Source: Isosphaera sp.
Lineage (GTDB): Bacteria; Planctomycetota; Phycisphaerae; Phycisphaerales; UBA1924
Direction: 5' to 3'
Assembly (NCBI GenBank): GCA_013822085.1
Contig: PNJV01000005.1
Span: forward strand, 1 to 64,000
DNA length: 64,000 nucleotides
The stretch's first letter is position 1. The number at the start of each line of letters is the position of its first letter. Of this stretch, positions 1,817-26,643 are shown piece by piece. Position numbers and translations under genes: made by a program. Under the pieces are notes generated by a model. It had not been told where the DNA came from, made no database searches, and saw only the letters and a program-made list of their open reading frames with translations.

Positions 1817-2395
1817 TCAGTGCACCAGGTTGGTGCAGGCCTCGATGGCGTCGATGACCTGGCGGACCTGGAAGGGCTTGCGCAGGGCCAGCTCAAAGCC
1901 CTGGCCGCGCAGCCCCGAGAGCTGGGCGTCGGTGAGCTTGCCGCTCATGGCGATGACCTTGGTCAGCTGCAGGTCGTCCTCGCCCTGGATCGACTGGATG
2001 AACTCGACCGGGTCGGTCTGGTCCAGGTGCACGTCCAGGAGCATGACGTGGGGCTTGAAGCGCTCGCACTCGAGGCCGGCGGCGAAGGCGGTGGCGGCGA
2101 CGCGGACCTCGTAGTTGGCCTGCTCGGAGAGCACCTTGTGGAGGATGTCGGTCACGTCGGCCTCGTCGTCGACGATGAGCACGCGCGTGCGGCCCGAGAC
2201 GATGCCGTCGAGCGGGATGCCGTGCTCCTTCATGAACTTGACCAGCTGGCCGACCGGGATGCGGCGGTCCTTGGACCCCGGGATGCGGTACCCTCGCAGC
2301 TGGCCCGAATCGAACCACTTCGAGACCGTGCGGGGGGCGACGTTGCAGATCTTGGCGACCTCACCTGTGGTGAGCACGTCCTTGTCGAAGGGCAT
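1817..2395 (-). CDS. response regulator with excisionase-type HTH
   Basis: 192-residue two-domain regulator. Residues about 8-60 form an excisionase/MerR-like helix-turn-helix (TTGEVAKICNVAPRTVSKWF, then a GYRIPGSKDRRIP wing and a QLVKFMKEHG helix). A receiver domain follows: acidic pair VDDEAD, phospho-acceptor in LLDVHLDQ, Ser in AMSGK and Lys in LRKPF. The start at 2395 (MPFDKDV) is preceded on the minus strand by AAGAAGGA about 9 nt upstream; the frame stays open further upstream but that part is low complexity. HTH-first receiver proteins of this kind are common in planctomycetes. No histidine kinase is adjacent, so the partner is unknown. Confidence 0.8.
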   Translation of the reverse strand: MPFDKDVLTTGEVAKICNVAPRTVSKWFDSGQLRGYRIPGSKDRRIPVGQLVKFMKEHGIPLDGIVSGRTRVLIVDDEADVTDILHKVLSEQANYEVRVAATAFAAGLECERFKPHVMLLDVHLDQTDPVEFIQSIQGEDDLQLTKVIAMSGKLTDAQLSGLRGQGFELALRKPFQVRQVIDAIEACTNLVH

Positions 2396-2810
2396 GGGGC
2401 GGTCCTTCTTGTGTTCGCGTCGGGGCATCCGTGCGCGACGGGTCTGGGCATGGGCGGGCGTCCGATTTCCCGTCCGCAGGTTCCATCGACGCAAAGCGGG
2501 GGCGTCTTGACGCCCAGGGAAGCGCTCCGGGCTGTTCCTAGTGGGAGGGACCTGCCGATTGTGCGGCCCCCTGCCGCGACCCATACGCCCCACCCCCACC
2601 CCCCACCCCCTGTTCCCACCTCCCACACCCGCCACCCCCGCTCGCCCGCTCCACACCCCCGCGCGCGTTCACCAGCTGACAGAGCAACCGCCGACGGGGC
2701 GCAAGCGGAAAGTCTGGTGCGATCGGCGCTCCGGCTGGGACACCGGGGGCGCCGAGAGTGCGCACGACCGACAGCGCGGGTGCGCGGGCGCGCTGGCGCG
2801 CGGCGCCGCG

Positions 2811-3098: not shown

Positions 3099-5612
3099 GT
3101 GACAGGATCTCAAACAGTGGCCGGTGGTCCCCGTGGCCTGAGGCAGGGCCTGATCGGCCTGACGCTGTGCGTTGGCCTGGCCCTGAGCGCCGCGGCGCAC
3201 GCACAGGAACGCGCGCCGCGCGACGAGGAGCTCCTGCGCGACTTCATCCACTTCGTGCGCATCGACCGCCCGGACCTTGCCGCGTCCTTTGGCGAGGCGC
3301 TCCTGGCCCGGCTGGGGCCGCCGATCGGGACCGCCGCCCAGGGCCAGGGCCTCTCGCTGGAGCAGTTCGTCAAGCTCCTGGAGAGCTCGGGGGAGCTGGC
3401 CCGCTTCGAGGAGGCCACGGCCCGGGCCCAACGGCAGGGCGACGTGCAGAGCGTGGCCTCCAAGCTCCAGCAGGCCCTGGAGCAGGGCCGGCGGAACACC
3501 TCGCGCGACCCGGGACAGATCGCCGCCAGCGTGCAGCTGCTGGTGGGCACGCAGCGCCAGCGCCTGGTGGCGCGCGAGCGGCTCGGCGCCGCCGGCGAGT
3601 ACGCCGTGCCCCAGCTGCTCACGGCCCTCCAGTCCCGCCAGAACGCCACGCTCACGGCGGAGGTTCGGCTGCTGCTTGTGGACATGGGCCTCAAGGCCGT
3701 GGCGCCGCTGGCGGCCGCCCTGGAGGGCCTGGAGCCGGCGGCCCAGGAGACGGTCGCCGGCATCCTGGGCGATATCGGCTACCCCGTGGCCCTGCCGTAC
3801 CTGTCGGAGCTGCTGACCACCGCCACGACCCAGGGCCCGCGCGACGCGGCCCGGCGTGCCATCGCCAGGATCACCGGCGCCGAGCCGGGCGAGCGGCCCG
3901 ACGTGAGCGCGCAGTACGAGGCCCTGGCCGAGGGCTTCTACGACCAGCCGAGCCAGCTGATCGCCTACCCCGGCGAGGCCCAGCAGCCGGTCTGGTCCTA
4001 CGACCCGCGGCTGGGCCTGTTCCCCACGACCGTGGACACAGCGGTGTTCCACGAGACCCAGGCGCTGCGCCTGGCCGAGCGGGCCCTGCGGATCGACCCG
4101 TCGCGCTCCAGCGCCCTGGCCCTGTGGCTGGCCGGGAACTTCCGGCGCGAGCTGGACACGCCCAGCGGCTACGTCAACCCGCTCTACGACCGCCGCAAGG
4201 CCGAGTACTGGGCGGTGCTGGCCGGCCCGTCGGCGTGCCAGCGCGTCCTGGCCCGCGCGCTGGACGACCGGGACACGCCGCTGGCGCGCATGAGCATCGC
4301 GGCCCTGATCCAGATGGCCGGGGCCCAGAGCCTCTCGGCACCCGAGGAGGGCCGACGCCCGCTCCTTGAGGCCCTGCGCTACCCCAACCGCCGGGTGCAG
4401 CTTGAGGCCGCCCTGGCCCTGGCCCAGGCCCAGCCGGCCCAGACGTTCGACGGCGCCGACCGGGTGATCCCGATCCTGTCCTCGGCCGTCCGCGACGCGG
4501 GGAGGCTCTTTGCCGTCGTGCTGGCCTCGGACAACGAGCGCGCCGGCTCGCTGGTCGATCAGCTCACCCAGCGCGGCTACACCGTGCTCCCGCCGGCGGG
4601 GGCGCTGCCCGAGATCGAGCAGGAGATCGCCGCCGCACCCGGGATCGACCTGCTGGTGACCGACCTGACGCTCAGCCGCACGCAGGCGGCCCTGGAGCAG
4701 GCCCGCGGCATCGTCCGCCTGCAGGCCACGCCGATCGTGTCGCTGCTGAGCACCGAGTCGCAGGTCGAGCTGGCCGGGCGCTACTCGCAGGACCCCGGCG
4801 TCCGCTTCGTCCGCCCCGGCCTGACGCCCGAGCAGCTGGCCGAGAACGTCACGCAGGTCGTCACCGCCAGCACCGGCGGCGTGATCACCGCCGACGAGGC
4901 CGACGCCTACCGCGACCGCGCCCTGTCGACGCTCCGCGACCTGGCCATCGCCGACAGCCCCGTCTTTGACGTGGTGGACGCCACGGCGCCGCTGATCGGT
5001 GAGCTGGGCTCGGCCACCGGGAGCGTCCGCCTGCGCATCGCCGACGTGCTGGCGGCCGTGCCGGACCACCGGGCGCAGGTCGCCGTCCTGGACGCGGCCC
5101 TCGCCTCGGCCGACGACGAGCAGCTGGCACTGTTCCGCTCCGCCACCGACTCGGCCAAGCGCTTCGGCAACCTGGCCACCGACCGCCAGGTTCAGCGGCT
5201 GCTCGACCTGGCCGGCACCGGCACCGACGAGCAGGCCACCACCGCCGCGGCGCTCATCGGCGCCCTGAACGTCCGCAACCAGAACCTCGTGCCCCTGATC
5301 CTCAAGCACCCGCCCAGGCTGGCTCGGGCACGGCCCGGCGCTGAGCACGCCAAGAACTCCCCGTCGGCACCGGGCAGACCGCGATGGCGACCGCGGGGAT
5401 GGGTGGCGGGGGGTGGCGGGGCGCGGACGGAACGGGTGACGCAGCGCCCGCGGCCTTGGCCCGACGCCCTGCGCCGGCTATCATCTCGGCCCCGCGTGCG
5501 ACGGGCCCGACCGGCCCGGGACGTGGGCCATCCGCGGAGCCTCGGCGATGTTCGACGCATTCAAGCCCGGCCAGACCATCCACCTGACCATCGAGCGCGT
5601 CCCACGCCGTGA
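3099..5612 (+). CDS. exported HEAT-repeat protein with receiver-like insert; probable 3' frameshift
   Basis: The GTG start at 3099 follows AAGGAG (about 8 nt away) and opens a signal peptide (GLIGLTLCVGLALSAAAHA). Residues about 150-460 contain HEAT-like helical repeats (PQLLTALQSRQ, VAPLAAALEGL, ALPYLSELL). Residues about 465-600 instead read like a Rossmann-type receiver domain: FAVVLASDNERAGSLVDQL, then LLVTDLTLSRT, PIVSLLS and FVRPGLTPEQL, followed by more helical repeats. Coding bias stops at about 5315; the remaining frame to 5612 loses GC at third positions and runs 65 nt into the next gene. One extra base near 5310 would give the end HPAQAGSGTARR with a TGA at 5342-5344, so the true gene probably ends there. 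Function unknown; a periplasmic scaffold is only a guess. Confidence 0.7.
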   Translation: MTGSQTVAGGPRGLRQGLIGLTLCVGLALSAAAHAQERAPRDEELLRDFIHFVRIDRPDLAASFGEALLARLGPPIGTAAQGQGLSLEQFVKLLESSGELARFEEATARAQRQGDVQSVASKLQQALEQGRRNTSRDPGQIAASVQLLVGTQRQRLVARERLGAAGEYAVPQLLTALQSRQNATLTAEVRLLLVDMGLKAVAPLAAALEGLEPAAQETVAGILGDIGYPVALPYLSELLTTATTQGPRDAARRAIARITGAEPGERPDVSAQYEALAEGFYDQPSQLIAYPGEAQQPVWSYDPRLGLFPTTVDTAVFHETQALRLAERALRIDPSRSSALALWLAGNFRRELDTPSGYVNPLYDRRKAEYWAVLAGPSACQRVLARALDDRDTPLARMSIAALIQMAGAQSLSAPEEGRRPLLEALRYPNRRVQLEAALALAQAQPAQTFDGADRVIPILSSAVRDAGRLFAVVLASDNERAGSLVDQLTQRGYTVLPPAGALPEIEQEIAAAPGIDLLVTDLTLSRTQAALEQARGIVRLQATPIVSLLSTESQVELAGRYSQDPGVRFVRPGLTPEQLAENVTQVVTASTGGVITADEADAYRDRALSTLRDLAIADSPVFDVVDATAPLIGELGSATGSVRLRIADVLAAVPDHRAQVAVLDAALASADDEQLALFRSATDSAKRFGNLATDRQVQRLLDLAGTGTDEQATTAAALIGALNVRNQNLVPLILKHPPRLARARPGAEHAKNSPSAPGRPRWRPRGWVAGGGGARTERVTQRPRPWPDALRRLSSRPRVRRARPARDVGHPRSLGDVRRIQARPDHPPDHRARPTP
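5479..5484 (+). promoter_or_regulatory. -10-like TATCAT
   Basis: TATCAT within GGCTATCATCTCGG, 63 nt before the start at 5548. No -35 is recognisable. It supports independent transcription of the small gene and an end of the HEAT gene upstream. Confidence 0.35.
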
Positions 5613-5969: not shown

Positions 5970-6530
5970 ATGGCACCCCGACTCACCGCCGCCCTGACCA
6001 TCGCTGTGCTCTGCGCCACCGCTGCGCTGCCCGGCTGCGACTCCAAGCCCTCGGCCCAGCCGGCCCGCAAGGCCGCTGCGCCCGATATGCCGCCGGACCA
6101 GACCTACACCGTGCGCGGCGTGGTCCGCTCCTCGCCGCTGGCAAGCTCGAAGTTCGCCGAGACGCGGATCGAGCACGAGGCGATCGACGGGTTCGTCAAC
6201 CTCAACGGCCAGGTGGTGGGGATGAACTCGATGATCATGGACTTCCCGCTCGACGGCTCGATCGACGCCGGGTCGATCAAGCCGGGGGACAAGGTCGAGG
6301 TGACGTTCTCGGTGTGGTGGAAGGGGGACCCGAAGTGGATGGCCACGCGGATCAAGCCGCTGGACCCGGCGACCGAGCTGACCTTCGGCAGGGCCGACCC
6401 GTCCCGGGCTGCGTCGGGCGCCGCCGCCGCGCCCGCTGCTGAGCCCACCCCCGCGCCCGCAGTGCCCGCGCCCGACGCGCCCGACGCGCCCGCGAGTCAG
6501 CCGCAGGGGGCCGCCCAGCCTCAGGGGTGA
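5970..6530 (+). CDS. CusF-like copper-binding-domain lipoprotein
   Basis: 186-residue lipoprotein. The signal sequence ends in the lipobox LPGC (about residues 19-22). Residues about 36-118 match the CusF/Ec-type fold seen in periplasmic copper chaperones: YTVRGVVRS, IEHEAIDGFVN, VGMNSMIMDFPL and IKPGDKVEVTFSV. In this family the strand carrying the His/Met pattern binds Cu(I)/Ag(I); here HE, GM and MIMDF are kept. The C-terminal 50 residues are Ala/Pro-rich. It lies 7 nt before a glycosyltransferase gene, so the two may be cotranscribed. In many bacteria this domain sits beside SCO1 proteins; none is present here. Copper binding is family knowledge, not shown. Confidence 0.75.
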   Translation: MAPRLTAALTIAVLCATAALPGCDSKPSAQPARKAAAPDMPPDQTYTVRGVVRSSPLASSKFAETRIEHEAIDGFVNLNGQVVGMNSMIMDFPLDGSIDAGSIKPGDKVEVTFSVWWKGDPKWMATRIKPLDPATELTFGRADPSRAASGAAAAPAAEPTPAPAVPAPDAPDAPASQPQGAAQPQG

Positions 6531-16166: not shown

Positions 16167-19100
16167 GTGCCCACCCTGTGCATCATCGACGGCTACGCGC
16201 AGTTCTTCCGCGCCTACCACGCCATCCGCACGCCGATGACCTCGCCGGTCACCAAGGAACCGACCAACCTCACCTTCGGGTTCGTGGGCCTGATCCTCAA
16301 GCTCCTGCGCAGCGAAGGCGGGCGCGACCTGCCGTGCGACATGCTCGCCTGCGCGGTCGACGTCAGCAGCGATCGCGGGACCTTCCGCTCTGCGCTCTAC
16401 CCGCAGTACAAGGCCACGCGGCCACCGCCGCCCGAGGACCTGCCGACGCAGGTCGATCGCTGCCTGCGGCTGCTGGGGAGCCTCGGCGTGCCCGTGGTCG
16501 GGGCCGAGGGCTTCGAGGCCGACGACGTGATCGCCACGCTGGTGCGCCGGGCCGTGAGCCAGCGCCCCGACCTGCGCGTGCGGATCATCAGCAAGGACAA
16601 GGACCTGCGGCAGCTGCTGGTGCCGGGCCGCGTGGAGATGTACGACGCGCACACCAGCGCCGTGATCGACGCCGAGTCGCTGCGCGCCGAGCACGGGATC
16701 ACGCCGGCGCAGGTCGTCGACTGGCTGGCGCTGATGGGCGACACCGTCGACAACGTGCCCGGCGTGCCCGGCGTGGGCCCCAAGACCGCCGCCGAGCTGA
16801 TCGCCCAGCACGGGTCCATCGCCGCGCTCCTGGAGCACGCCGAGTCCATCAAGGGCAAGCGGGGCGAGGCCATCCGGGCCGCTGCGCAGACGCTGGCGCT
16901 CTCGCAGCGGCTGGTCACGCTGCGCGACGACGCGCCGGTGACGCTCGACCTGGACGCCTGCGCCGTCGACCGGTTGCGTCTGGAGGAGCTGCTGCCGATC
17001 CTGCGCGAGCTTGGCTTCAACCGCTACCAGGACGAGGTCCGCCAGCTCCTCCGTGCGCGCAGCGGATCGCCCCACGGGCCGGCGTCCCAGCCACCGGGCG
17101 GCGCCCAGCCCGGCGACGCCGCAGCGCCGCCGCCGCTGAGCCCGACGCGCCGCCCCGTGCGCGGCGACATGGCCGGCCAGTGCGGGCTCTTTGACGACCT
17201 GCCCGCGGGCGCCACGACCGGGGCCGGCGCCGGCGGCCTGAGCAGCATCGAGGCGGGCGCGCCCACGCGCGGCACCTACCGCTGCGCACGCACACCCGCC
17301 GACCTGGCCGAGCTCATCGACGAGCTGCGCGCCGCCCCGGTCATGGCCCTGGACACGGAGACCACCGGCCTGGACCCCCGCAGGAGCAGGCTCGCCGGCC
17401 TGTGCTTCTCGACGCGCGCCGGCACAGGCTGGTACGTGCCGGTGCGCTCACCCGAGCCGGCGCAGCACATGGACCAGGCCGCTGTGCTGGGCGCCCTGCG
17501 GCCGATCCTGGAGCGCCCCCCCGGGCGCGTCTGCGGGCACAATCTCAAGTTCGACCTGCTGGTCCTCCGCGCAGCCGGCGTGCGCTTCGAGTGCGACCCC
17601 TCACCGGCCGACGCCCCGCCCGGCGGCCGCGTCTTTGACTCCATGGTCGCCTCGTACCTGATCGACGCGTCGCGCTCGGGCCACGGCCTGGACGCGCTGG
17701 CCCTGGCCCTGCTGGGGCACACCAACATCTCCATCAAGGAGCTGCTCGGCCCCGACGCGGCCAAGACCGGCCGCACCTTCGCCGACGTGCCCCTGGACCT
17801 GGCCACGCAGTACGCCGCCGAGGACGCCGACGTGGCCCTGCGCCTCATGGGGTTCATGGAGCCGCAGCTGCGCGCCCTGGGCCTGGTGCGCCTCTTTGAG
17901 ACCCTGGAGATGCCGCTGGTCCAGGCCCTGGCAGACCTGGAGTGGAACGGCGTCCGCGTCGAGCCGACCGAGCTGGACCGCCAGCGCGACCGCCTCGTGG
18001 CCCTGGCCCAGCAGACCCGCGGCAAGATCGACGACGCCGCGATGGAGTCCATCGGCCGCACCTTCAACCCCGACTCGCCCAAGCAGCTGGCCGGCGCCCT
18101 GTTCAACAAGCCCACCGACGCCGACCCCGGCCTGGGCCTGCGGCCCGTCAAGCGCACCAAGACCGGCCCGAGCACCGACGCCGAGGTCCTCGAGTCGCTC
18201 GCCGAGGACCCGGCCGTCTCCACGCCGATCCCGCGGCTGATCGTCGAATACCGCCAGCTCACCAAGCTGGTATCCACCTATTTAGTGGCCCTGCGCGAGG
18301 CGATCAGCCCCGTGACTGGCCGCATCCACGCCTCGTTCCATCAGACCGTCGCCGCCACCGGGCGGCTCTCATCGAGCGACCCGAACCTCCAGAACATCCC
18401 GATCCGCACCGACACCGGGCGCGAGATCCGCCGCGCGTTCGTGGCCGAGCCGGGGCACCTGCTCCTCTCGGCCGACTACTCGCAGATCGAGCTGCGCCTG
18501 CTGGCGCACCTCTCGCGCGACCCGGCCCTGACCGAGGCCTTCCGGTCCGACGAGGACATCCACACCGCCGTGGCCGCGCAGGTGGCCGGCATCGAGCCGA
18601 GCCAGGTCACGCGCCAGCAGCGCTCGGGGGCCAAGATGGTCAACTTCGGCATCGTCTACGGCATCACCGCCTTCGGCCTGGCGCGTCGCCTCGGCATCAC
18701 CACCCAGGCCGCCGACGAGATCATCACCTCGTACAAGCGTCGCTTTGCGGGGATCACCACGTTCCTCCAGGAGTGCGTCGAGCAGGCGCGCCGGCACGGG
18801 GCCGTCCTGACGATCATGGGGCGCCGCCGGCCGATCCCCGACATCGACAGCGCCACCCCGGCCCGCCGGGCGCTGGCCGAGCGCACGGCCATCAACAGCG
18901 TCGTGCAGGGCTCGGCCGCCGACCTGATCAAGCTGGCCATGGTGGACCTGCGCCGCCGGCTGGCCGCCGCCGACCTGGGCGCTCCCCTCGATGCGCCCGA
19001 CGCGGCCCTGGCCGGCTCGCGCATGCTCCTCCAGATCCACGACGAGCTGGTCTTCGAGTGCCCCCGCGACCGCGCCGAGGCGGCCCGCGCCGTCGTCGTC

Positions 19101-24762: not shown

Positions 24763-26643
24763 ATGGTGTCACAACCGATGTCCGCCGTGCTGCTCATCGC
24801 CGAACCGGGGATGACCGACGACCCGCCGGTCCGCACGCTCGTCGAGCGGCTCTCGCGGACGCACACGGTCGAGACCTGCCTGCCCTGCGAGGCCCAGGCC
24901 TGTGCCGAGCGCATCCAGCCCGTGCTCACGCTCCGCATCGACGCCCCGCCGGGACAGCCCGCCGAGCACGCCGGCCCGCAGGACCCCAAACACGCCCCCG
25001 CCCACCACGCCCCCGAGACGACGCAGCACAAGACGACAGACCAGGACGCCTCCGCGGCGATCCTCAACGCCCTCGGGTTGGCCGCCTGCATGGTGAGCCC
25101 CGAGGGCGTCGTTGTTTCCAGCTCGCGCGCGCTGACGGCCCTGGAGCCGGGCCTGCGCGCCCGCGTCATCGACGTGGCGCGTCGGGCGGCCTGCGAGCCG
25201 GGGCGCCTGCCGCTCTCGGTCGATGTCCACTCGCCCGACGAGTCGCGCTGCCTGGAGGTCTCGATCCACCCCGCGGTGCAGCCGGCCGAGCCGGCCGCCG
25301 CCGGGCCCGGCCCCGGTCAGCCCGGGACCGGAGCGGGCTGGGCCGTGGCCCTGGTGGCCCTGATCGCCCACGACGTGACGGCCCTGCGGCGCACCCAGAG
25401 CAAGCTGGCCGCCATCGACCGCGCCGGCGACGAGCTCGTCCGCCTCGACCGCGAGCTGGTCAAGAAGATGCACGCCGCCGACCGCCTGCGCGTGCTCGAG
25501 CAGAAGATCGTCCGCTACGCCCACGACCTGCTCCACTTCGACCACTTCGCCATCCGCCTGACCGACGACCGCTCGGGCAAGCTCGACCTGATCATGTGCC
25601 AGGGGCTGCCCCCGGCGGCCATGGAGGTCCAGCTCTACGCCCAGCCCTCGGGCAACGGCATCTCCGGCTACGTCGCCGCCACGGGGCGGTCGTACGTCTG
25701 CCACGACACCTCCAAGGACCCGCGCTACGTCATCGGCATCGACCTGGCCCGGTCCTCGCTGACGATCCCGCTGCGGCTGTCCGACCGCGTGATCGGCGTG
25801 TTCAACGTCGAGTCGACCAGGCCCAACAACTTCACCGAGGAGGACCGCCAGTTCGGCGAGAAGTTCGCCACCTACGTGGCCCTGGCCCTGCACATCCTGG
25901 ACCTGCTGGTCGTCGAGCGGTGCGCCACCGGCCAGGCCGTCTCGGGCAACGTCGAGGGCGAGCTCTCCGAGCCGCTGGACGACATCGCGCAGATGGCCGC
26001 CCGCCTCAAGCTGGCCCTGACCGCCGCCGGGCCGGCCACCGACCCGGCCACGCTGCGCGCCATCGACCGCATCGCCCTGGACGTGGACTCCATCCGCCGC
26101 CGGGTCAAGGACGTCGCCGCTGGGCCGGCCACGATCTTCGGCGCCGACCGCCTGCTGGCCGAGTCGGCCATCGACCCGGTCATCGCCGGCAAGCGCGTGC
26201 TGGTGGCCGACGACGACCCGCGCATCCGCCAGGTCATCCGCGACGTCCTGCGGGCGCGCGGCGCCGACGTGGTCATCTGCGAGGACGGCTCGACCGCCGT
26301 CGCGGCCCTCTCGGGCACCGGCGGCGCGGGCGGGCCGGCGGTCTCCTCGGGCGCCCCGGGCCAGGAGCGGCCGCTCGAGCCGCTCGTCTCCCTGCCCAGG
26401 CCCTTCGACATGCTCATCTCGGACATCCGCCTGCCCGACAAGTCCGGCTACGAGGTCTTCTCGGCGGCGCGCCAGGCCAACGCCGACCTGCCCGTCATCC
26501 TCATGACCGGCTTCGGGTACGACCCGCACCACTCGATCGTGCGCGCCTCGCAGGAGGGCCTCTCCTGCGTCCTCTTCAAGCCCTTCCAGGCCGAGCGGCT
26601 GATCGAGGAGGTCCACAAGGCCCTGGGCGCTGCGCAGGGCTGA
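24763..26643 (+). CDS. GAF-domain response regulator
   Basis: About 626 residues, soluble. The N-terminal 170 residues are a weak sensor-like region, with a PAS-like strand pattern around ILNALGLAACMVSPEGVVVSSS. A short coiled coil (LAAIDRAGDELVRLDRELVKKM) leads into a GAF domain (about 235-390; HFDHFAIRLTDDRSGKLDL, GISGYVAATGRSYVC, LTIPLRLSDRVIGVFNVES). The C-terminal receiver (about 478-625) has VADDDP, phospho-acceptor in LISDIRLPDKSG, LMTGFG and LFKPF, plus an unusual Gly/Pro-rich insert of about 30 residues between its second and third strands. The start is uncertain: ATG 24763, ATG 24778, or a GTG at 24730 lying 8 nt after TAGACT. No output domain is present, so it probably signals through partners. 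Confidence 0.75.
   Translation: MVSQPMSAVLLIAEPGMTDDPPVRTLVERLSRTHTVETCLPCEAQACAERIQPVLTLRIDAPPGQPAEHAGPQDPKHAPAHHAPETTQHKTTDQDASAAILNALGLAACMVSPEGVVVSSSRALTALEPGLRARVIDVARRAACEPGRLPLSVDVHSPDESRCLEVSIHPAVQPAEPAAAGPGPGQPGTGAGWAVALVALIAHDVTALRRTQSKLAAIDRAGDELVRLDRELVKKMHAADRLRVLEQKIVRYAHDLLHFDHFAIRLTDDRSGKLDLIMCQGLPPAAMEVQLYAQPSGNGISGYVAATGRSYVCHDTSKDPRYVIGIDLARSSLTIPLRLSDRVIGVFNVESTRPNNFTEEDRQFGEKFATYVALALHILDLLVVERCATGQAVSGNVEGELSEPLDDIAQMAARLKLALTAAGPATDPATLRAIDRIALDVDSIRRRVKDVAAGPATIFGADRLLAESAIDPVIAGKRVLVADDDPRIRQVIRDVLRARGADVVICEDGSTAVAALSGTGGAGGPAVSSGAPGQERPLEPLVSLPRPFDMLISDIRLPDKSGYEVFSAARQANADLPVILMTGFGYDPHHSIVRASQEGLSCVLFKPFQAERLIEEVHKALGAAQG

Follow-up and report, generated by a model that had tools for sequence, protein, structure and literature searches.

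A HEAT-repeat protein of Planctomycetota with a predicted signal peptide and an inserted, apparently non-catalytic receiver domain

The 64 kb stretch of planctomycete DNA analysed here (the window) encodes a HEAT-repeat protein in which a domain with the fold of a response-regulator receiver lies between two runs of helical repeats. The most cautious description is of a HEAT solenoid that carries a signal peptide and contains a non-catalytic receiver, inserted long ago. The domain appears to be homologous to receivers yet incapable of phosphotransfer. The assembly from which the window is taken comprises 2.26 Mb in 62 contigs and is 86.7% complete, and the records of the relatives used for comparison are mostly labelled Phycisphaerales or Planctomycetota. 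Feature coordinates are collected in Table 1.

Results

Gene limits and protein architecture

The gene starts with a GTG at position 3,099 of the forward strand, and the same reading frame stays open until 5,612. Matches to most relatives stop at about query residue 734–761, with the relatives' own stop codons close behind. Since the relatives end soon after query residue 735 or thereabouts, the last ∼95 residues of the frame are probably outside the family sequence. This Arg/Pro-rich extension (5309–5612, forward strand) overlaps a small ORF beginning near 5548 and possibly reflects a lost stop codon or an assembly error.

In the predicted full-length model (pLDDT 93.2, pTM 0.87), the strands and helices of the receiver are placed between helical repeats. 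Residues 42–466 are mostly helices, with a two-strand hairpin at 295–313, and the best HEAT_2 (PF13646) stretch within this N-terminal solenoid covers residues 171–256. This Pfam match bears out the earlier description of the flanking repeats as HEAT-like.

Table 1. Coordinates of the HEAT/pseudo-receiver gene, its parts and its divergent neighbour in the window.
Feature	Positions	Strand	Basis or remark
Divergent neighbour, HTH_17 + Response_reg regulator	1817..2656	-	Pfam; ORF limits, conserved start MPFDKD inside
HEAT/pseudo-receiver protein with predicted signal peptide	3099..5333	+	ORF; family length from relatives' ends
Predicted Sec-type signal peptide, residues 1–35	3099..3203	+	Sequence; cleavage between AHA and QE placed by eye
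N-terminal helical solenoid, residues 42–466	3222..4496	+	Pfam and model
Pseudo-receiver domain, residues about 468–592	about 4500–4874	+	Models, fold searches, profile-profile comparison, PDB profile match
End of beta1 and acidic loop, residues 473–481	4515..4541	+	Ser477 = DD1, Asp478 = DD2, Glu480
Asp522, equivalent of the phospho-accepting Asp	4662..4664	+	Asp in 27/81 same-order and 3/29 wider-phylum rows
Arg572, equivalent of the catalytic Lys	4812..4814	+	Register may be off by one residue
C-terminal helical (HEAT-like) repeats, residues about 597–738	4887..5312	+	Model helices 598–734

Predicted export

An initial annotation of this DNA had proposed a signal peptide. By a simple criterion, one is detected in the window protein and in 185 of 189 family rows, a count in which some genomes appear twice; the exceptions are L032, L070, L110 and L152. 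The script that picked the protein starts favours hydrophobic N-termini, which biases the count towards signal peptides, and neighbours from the same loci were therefore run as controls, allowing any Met, Val or Leu start within the first 90 residues. In these controls the criterion picked out 1 of 75 HTH-REC regulators, 2 of 47 M42 peptidases and 3 of 38 GcvT proteins. As positive controls, all secretins (32/32) and all TPR proteins (28/28) were recognised.

The signal peptide does not appear to be an artefact of a start placed too early. Within the first 60 residues the only in-frame start codons are GTGs at residues 1, 7 and 53, and the first two retain the signal peptide. A start at residue 53 (nt 3255) would cost the conserved Asp48 and His51 as well as the signal peptide, which makes a downstream start, named in the annotation as a way in which it could fail, unlikely. 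Residues 1–23 and 25–31 have a pLDDT below 50 in the full-length model. Outside the signal peptide, no 19-residue window rises above a mean Kyte-Doolittle value of 1.54. The HEAT/pseudo-receiver protein is thus predicted to be exported from the cytoplasm; the N-terminus may be a signal anchor in place of a cleaved peptide.

A receiver fold between the repeats

An AlphaFold model of residues 463–602, built from 81 sequences, has a mean pLDDT of 87.1 and strands and helices in the (beta-alpha)5 order of a receiver (model elements E8-14, H17-29, E32-34, H41-50, E56-60, H63-75, E84-87, H90-100, E106-109, H115-129). Foldseek at E≤0.001 returned 26 PDB chains, the titles of which name a response regulator, a receiver or CheY, save two rows for Rv1626, presumably a response regulator as well. 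In VIA-align 2, where rows within 1 Z of each other count as tied, PhoP came out on top (5ed4_A; Z 16.0, rmsd 3.3, 125 aligned), and CheY4 (4h60) reached Z 15.3 with rmsd 2.3 and 118 aligned. Among the 50 rows listed, one is not named as a receiver: 28tm_A, an uncharacterised human Rossmann-fold protein (Z 14.9). A fold search with the full-length model yielded large solenoids with TM scores by query length of 0.11–0.20; they superposed poorly, and the search was not used as evidence.

The receiver-like domain that the initial annotation had read between the HEAT repeats is confirmed by model, fold and profile matches (see below for the last), and the four strings on which it drew were located at residues 471–489, 518–528 (LLVTDLTLSRT), 545–551 (PIVSLLS) and 570–580 (FVRPGLTPEQL). 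Its span of 4485–4905 was too wide and is corrected in Table 1.

Homology to receivers through distant relatives

Pfam is blind to the domain in the window protein: Response_reg is absent at E≤10 from the protein and from a longer segment, and at E≤0.1 from the cut segment. At E≤10 the protein matches HEAT_2 and, weakly, AAA_22 (E 0.05, below cut-off) only, and among 81 close segments a single one matches Response_reg (E 0.031). Such results are what would be expected if the receiver resemblance were due to chance and the segment consisted of ordinary HEAT repeats. That account is contradicted by the alpha/beta fold in both predicted models and by the fold and profile matches, which refute it unless the models are wrong, and we give it practically no credence.

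More distant proteins are recognised more readily. Response_reg is found in 8 of 35 full-length wider-phylum relatives at E≤0.01 (best 1.6e-8; six of the 35 are without the domain) and in 15 of 20 cut wider-phylum segments at E≤1 (best 8e-10). In hhalign, the close set aligned with receivers from the same genome at 95.9% (E 6.4e-9, columns 12–99 of 140), the wider-phylum set aligned with the same receivers at 98.8% over nearly the whole receiver, and the two sets aligned with each other at 98.6%. Searched against PDB sequences, the wider-phylum profile scores best with PleD chains (E 1.3e-19) at chain residues 155–273, which we take to be the second receiver of PleD. The whole-family profile matches CheY chains at profile positions 459–543 (E 2e-4). 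An NCBIfam search gave nothing useful. Profile searching, which had been suggested as a check, thus fails with Pfam in the window, but profile-profile comparison and the relatives tie the segment to receivers; distant relatives bridge the homology gap between the window domain and receivers.

Loss of the catalytic residues

Not one of the 81 same-order rows (the named set, consisting of the best 80 of 246 relatives and the window protein) nor of the 29 wider-phylum rows (the 35 minus the six without the domain) has all five catalytic residues (DD, D, T, K), which agrees with the earlier view of a degenerate receiver. The domain is a pseudo-receiver (PsR) as this term is defined in the available text of PMC12632262, namely a receiver domain in which one or more of the five are missing. 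The first acidic position, DD1 at residue 477, holds Asp or Glu in 9/81 same-order and 5/29 wider-phylum rows. The Asp in VTDL, as had been proposed, occupies the phospho-Asp position 522, and only 27/81 same-order rows have Asp there. The statement that the usual Lys is replaced by Arg stands in one register (Arg572) and falls in the other (Pro573), Lys being rare in either (at 572 or 573 in 4/81 and 4/29 rows). In contrast, phospho-Asp and Lys are invariant in 9/9 receivers from the same genome, a favourable choice made up of the top eight among 20 Pfam matches and the divergent neighbour.

The Asp at position 522 of the window protein and of the 27 rows would fit a functional receiver that acquires its phosphate before export or beyond the cytoplasm. 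Such a receiver is at odds with the conserved signal peptide, with the joint presence of Lys and Asp in only 1/81 and 1/29 rows, whichever register is used, and with the lack of the full five in every row; the catalytic residues led us to reject it, and we regard it as very improbable. The window protein appears not to be a two-component response regulator, since a signal peptide is predicted and the catalytic set is missing.

Several acidic positions are well kept within the order: position 478 (DD2) is acidic in 71/81 rows, with Asp in 66/81, Glu480 is found in 76/81 and Asp517 in 79/81. The conservation of Asp478 and Glu480, both in the beta1-alpha1 loop, would suit a pseudo-receiver whose former active-site loops take up a small ligand, with a change in the solenoid as the outcome. 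However, the wider phylum shows this pattern less clearly (acidic DD2 in 12/29, Glu480 in 6/29), and c-di-GMP, the ligand of the precedent, is a cytoplasmic messenger. The precedent is ShkA, where a pseudo-receiver has c-di-GMP as ligand (available text of PMC7010744). On balance, ligand binding seems quite improbable.

Spread and history of the domain

The protein is present in 60 of 61 genomes searched, the window's own included: 58 have one match and two (G027 and G028) have two partial matches each, close to contig ends or divided between contigs. Across the phylum, the family profile at E≤1e-10 finds 213 of 294 genomes, though many of the matches do not reach the domain. An alignment of 54 rows (the window protein, 18 order rows and 35 wider-phylum rows) was used to score presence of the domain. 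Full-length reading of the 35 wider-phylum proteins found the receiver in 29; the other six lack it, their flanking repeats being joined directly. The domain is also found in all 59 order rows, G028 being omitted as it is split over two contigs, and in every one of the 81 named-set rows. The receiver domain is thus not a local oddity.

In a tree built without the domain, and midpoint-rooted for drawing only, the six domain-less proteins form one group (100/99), and their sister L174 has the domain. One loss of the receiver is therefore the simplest account of the six sequences, provided that the root falls outside the class. Several of the six loci (L175–L180) adjoin a small membrane gene that by eye resembles AtpI/AtpZ. 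One further contig, that of L158, bears this planctomycete locus but is deposited as Leptolyngbya sp. PLA1; the record is probably misnamed.

The six domain-less genomes retain secretins (6–8 matches each) and PilM-like genes (2–5 each). A tie between loss of the domain and loss of secretins or PilM-like genes was rejected, as 20/20 genomes searched have both. Secretins in genomes with a domain-less protein also mean that the domain is unnecessary for such machines in general.

Within the protein the receiver segment is the least conserved part, with a mean pairwise identity of 0.356 versus 0.457–0.653 elsewhere, and no strongly conserved binding surface is evident from it. This low conservation is consistent with the pseudo-receiver being a structural spacer or a relic that separates two HEAT stacks and binds nothing specific, as are the clean absence of the domain from six proteins of one tree group with the flanking repeats kept, the persistence of secretins in their genomes and the structural look of several of the most conserved positions (Ala472, Gly493, Pro545). 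Retention of the domain in every order and named-set row and in most wider-phylum proteins, as counted above, speaks against a mere spacer, as do the kept acidic positions Asp478, Glu480 and Asp517. We consider the spacer or relic somewhat unlikely.

Gene neighbourhood

The neighbour counts cover 108 same-order loci with a length of 7 kb or more; ORFs came from a simple finder, and the models were derived from these loci themselves. In 64/103 same-order loci, the 2 kb downstream of the gene contain a GspG-like pilin (E≤1e-20) on the same strand, compared with 0/103 on the opposite strand and 0/100 upstream. A GspH-like pilin comes next in 51/88 loci and a secretin is found in 34/88. A TPR protein, whose start looks lipoprotein-like by eye, is found in 28/88, and all four occur together in 27/88. 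In L136, Pfam assigns N_methyl and T2SSG to the first pilin, N_methyl only to the next two and PF00263 to the secretin. Five loci (L040, L041, L042, L044 and L074) have three consecutive GspG-like pilin ORFs ahead of the GspH-like one. From the stop of the gene to the pilin motif the median distance is 449 bases (46 ORFs starting within 900 bases, some of them perhaps second pilins), a gap that does not imply one transcript. In genome G056, from another family of the order, the cassette begins ∼8 kb downstream, together with a PilM-like gene (L218). After this cassette, a histidine kinase (16910–18394) adjoins an ORF of 133 residues with a match to the HTH-REC model.

A divergent HTH-REC regulator is found upstream in 72/100 same-order loci (68/100 under a narrower rule). 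It is the sole neighbourhood model matched in the whole 64 kb window, from which the pilin-secretin cassette is absent by these models; matches to the pilin, the GspH-like protein, the secretin and the TPR protein sit together elsewhere in the same genome, on contig C18. Two other places in the window were noted. At 5970–6530 (forward strand) a short protein has an N-terminus that looks lipoprotein-like by eye and a CusF_Ec match with E 4e-5, below the family cut-off, and at 26401–26613 (forward strand) a partial Response_reg match (profile 42–110, 45.7 bits) lies in an open frame of 708 amino acids.

A neighbourhood common to the phylum was rejected within 2 kb of the gene: among wider-phylum loci of at least 7 kb, searched with the same-order models, the GspG-like pilin is found downstream in 0/18 and the HTH-REC regulator in 0/17. 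For a count of secretins, which needs 5.5 kb, the wider-phylum loci are too short. They have other neighbours, e.g., a gene that by eye resembles diaminopimelate decarboxylase.

Discussion

Taken with the lost catalytic residues, our analysis leads us to a tentative reading to which we give not quite an even chance: the protein would be an exported HEAT scaffold of the envelope, its pseudo-receiver a docking module independent of phosphorylation, its likely client a pseudopilus-secretin machine and its upstream neighbour a divergent regulator. The protein would leave the cytoplasm by Sec and form a long HEAT solenoid in the envelope; the pseudo-receiver may have been inserted into this solenoid early in the history of Planctomycetota. 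There the domain would serve as a rigid docking module on the scaffold. We infer docking because the chemistry is lost and because Cg1604 offers a precedent (PMC9897464, in the text available). The earlier suggestion of a degenerate protein-protein module is accordingly, we infer, the most likely reading of the domain. In Phycisphaerales the most likely client would be a pseudopilus-secretin machine (type II secretion or type IV pilus-like), the genes of which are often downstream, a link suggested by gene order alone. The divergent HTH-REC regulator may set expression. A bolder version, which we hold to be unlikely, goes further: a cytoplasmic signalling domain would have become a permanent, catalytically inactive component of the exported solenoid, and the solenoid itself would be a core periplasmic subunit of a phylum-specific secretin-pseudopilus machine.

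FrzS and PleD, two cytoplasmic proteins with pseudo-receivers, differ from the window protein in their partner domains. The likeness lies in the mode of action, since according to the available text of PMC12632262 both pseudo-receivers act by protein contacts, and that of FrzS binds SgmX, leading to activation of type IV pili. Compared with the PsR domains described in the available text of that paper, the window protein stands out by its signal peptide and its scaffold-like build, and the terms periplasm, extracellular, secreted, cytoplasm and signal peptide have 0 occurrences in the main text of PMC12632262.

The closest precedent is Cg1604 of Corynebacterium glutamicum, whose periplasmic domain, as described in the available text of PMC9897464, has receiver topology and activates a hydrolase by binding it. 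Both domains share a globular (beta/alpha)5 receiver topology with a predicted or known place outside the cytoplasm, and Cg1604 binds another envelope protein, as our domain would. Cg1604 is membrane-anchored (same text). It bears its binding site on a helical beta2-beta3 insertion, unlike the window domain, which in the model has one helix between beta2 and beta3, no added subdomain and a place inside a HEAT solenoid. Its PDB entry is absent among the 50 fold-search rows listed, and the likeness rests on this description. The solenoid itself resembles HEAT_2 and alphaRep-type solenoids, alphaRep-type chains matching the family profile with a best E of 2.9e-23. A HEAT protein with an inserted receiver is named in no title of the 27 profile-matched chains or of the 50 full-length fold rows listed.

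Pseudo-receivers were thus already known, as was one extracytoplasmic domain of receiver topology, that of Cg1604. What appears to be new is a widespread pseudo-receiver, predicted to be exported, inside a HEAT solenoid: among the literature matches listed there is no paper on this protein, nor on any exported pseudo-receiver besides Cg1604.

Receivers are the textbook cytoplasmic switch. A widespread exported pseudo-receiver, found in nearly all of the searched genomes of one order, would show that this fold can leave the cytoplasm and become a fixed structural element. Nature also supplies a domain-less version, in the six proteins of one group, which is a ready comparison for the role of the domain. 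The neighbourhood, finally, offers a first testable guess at the function of a conserved planctomycete protein of which no description was found among the literature matches listed.
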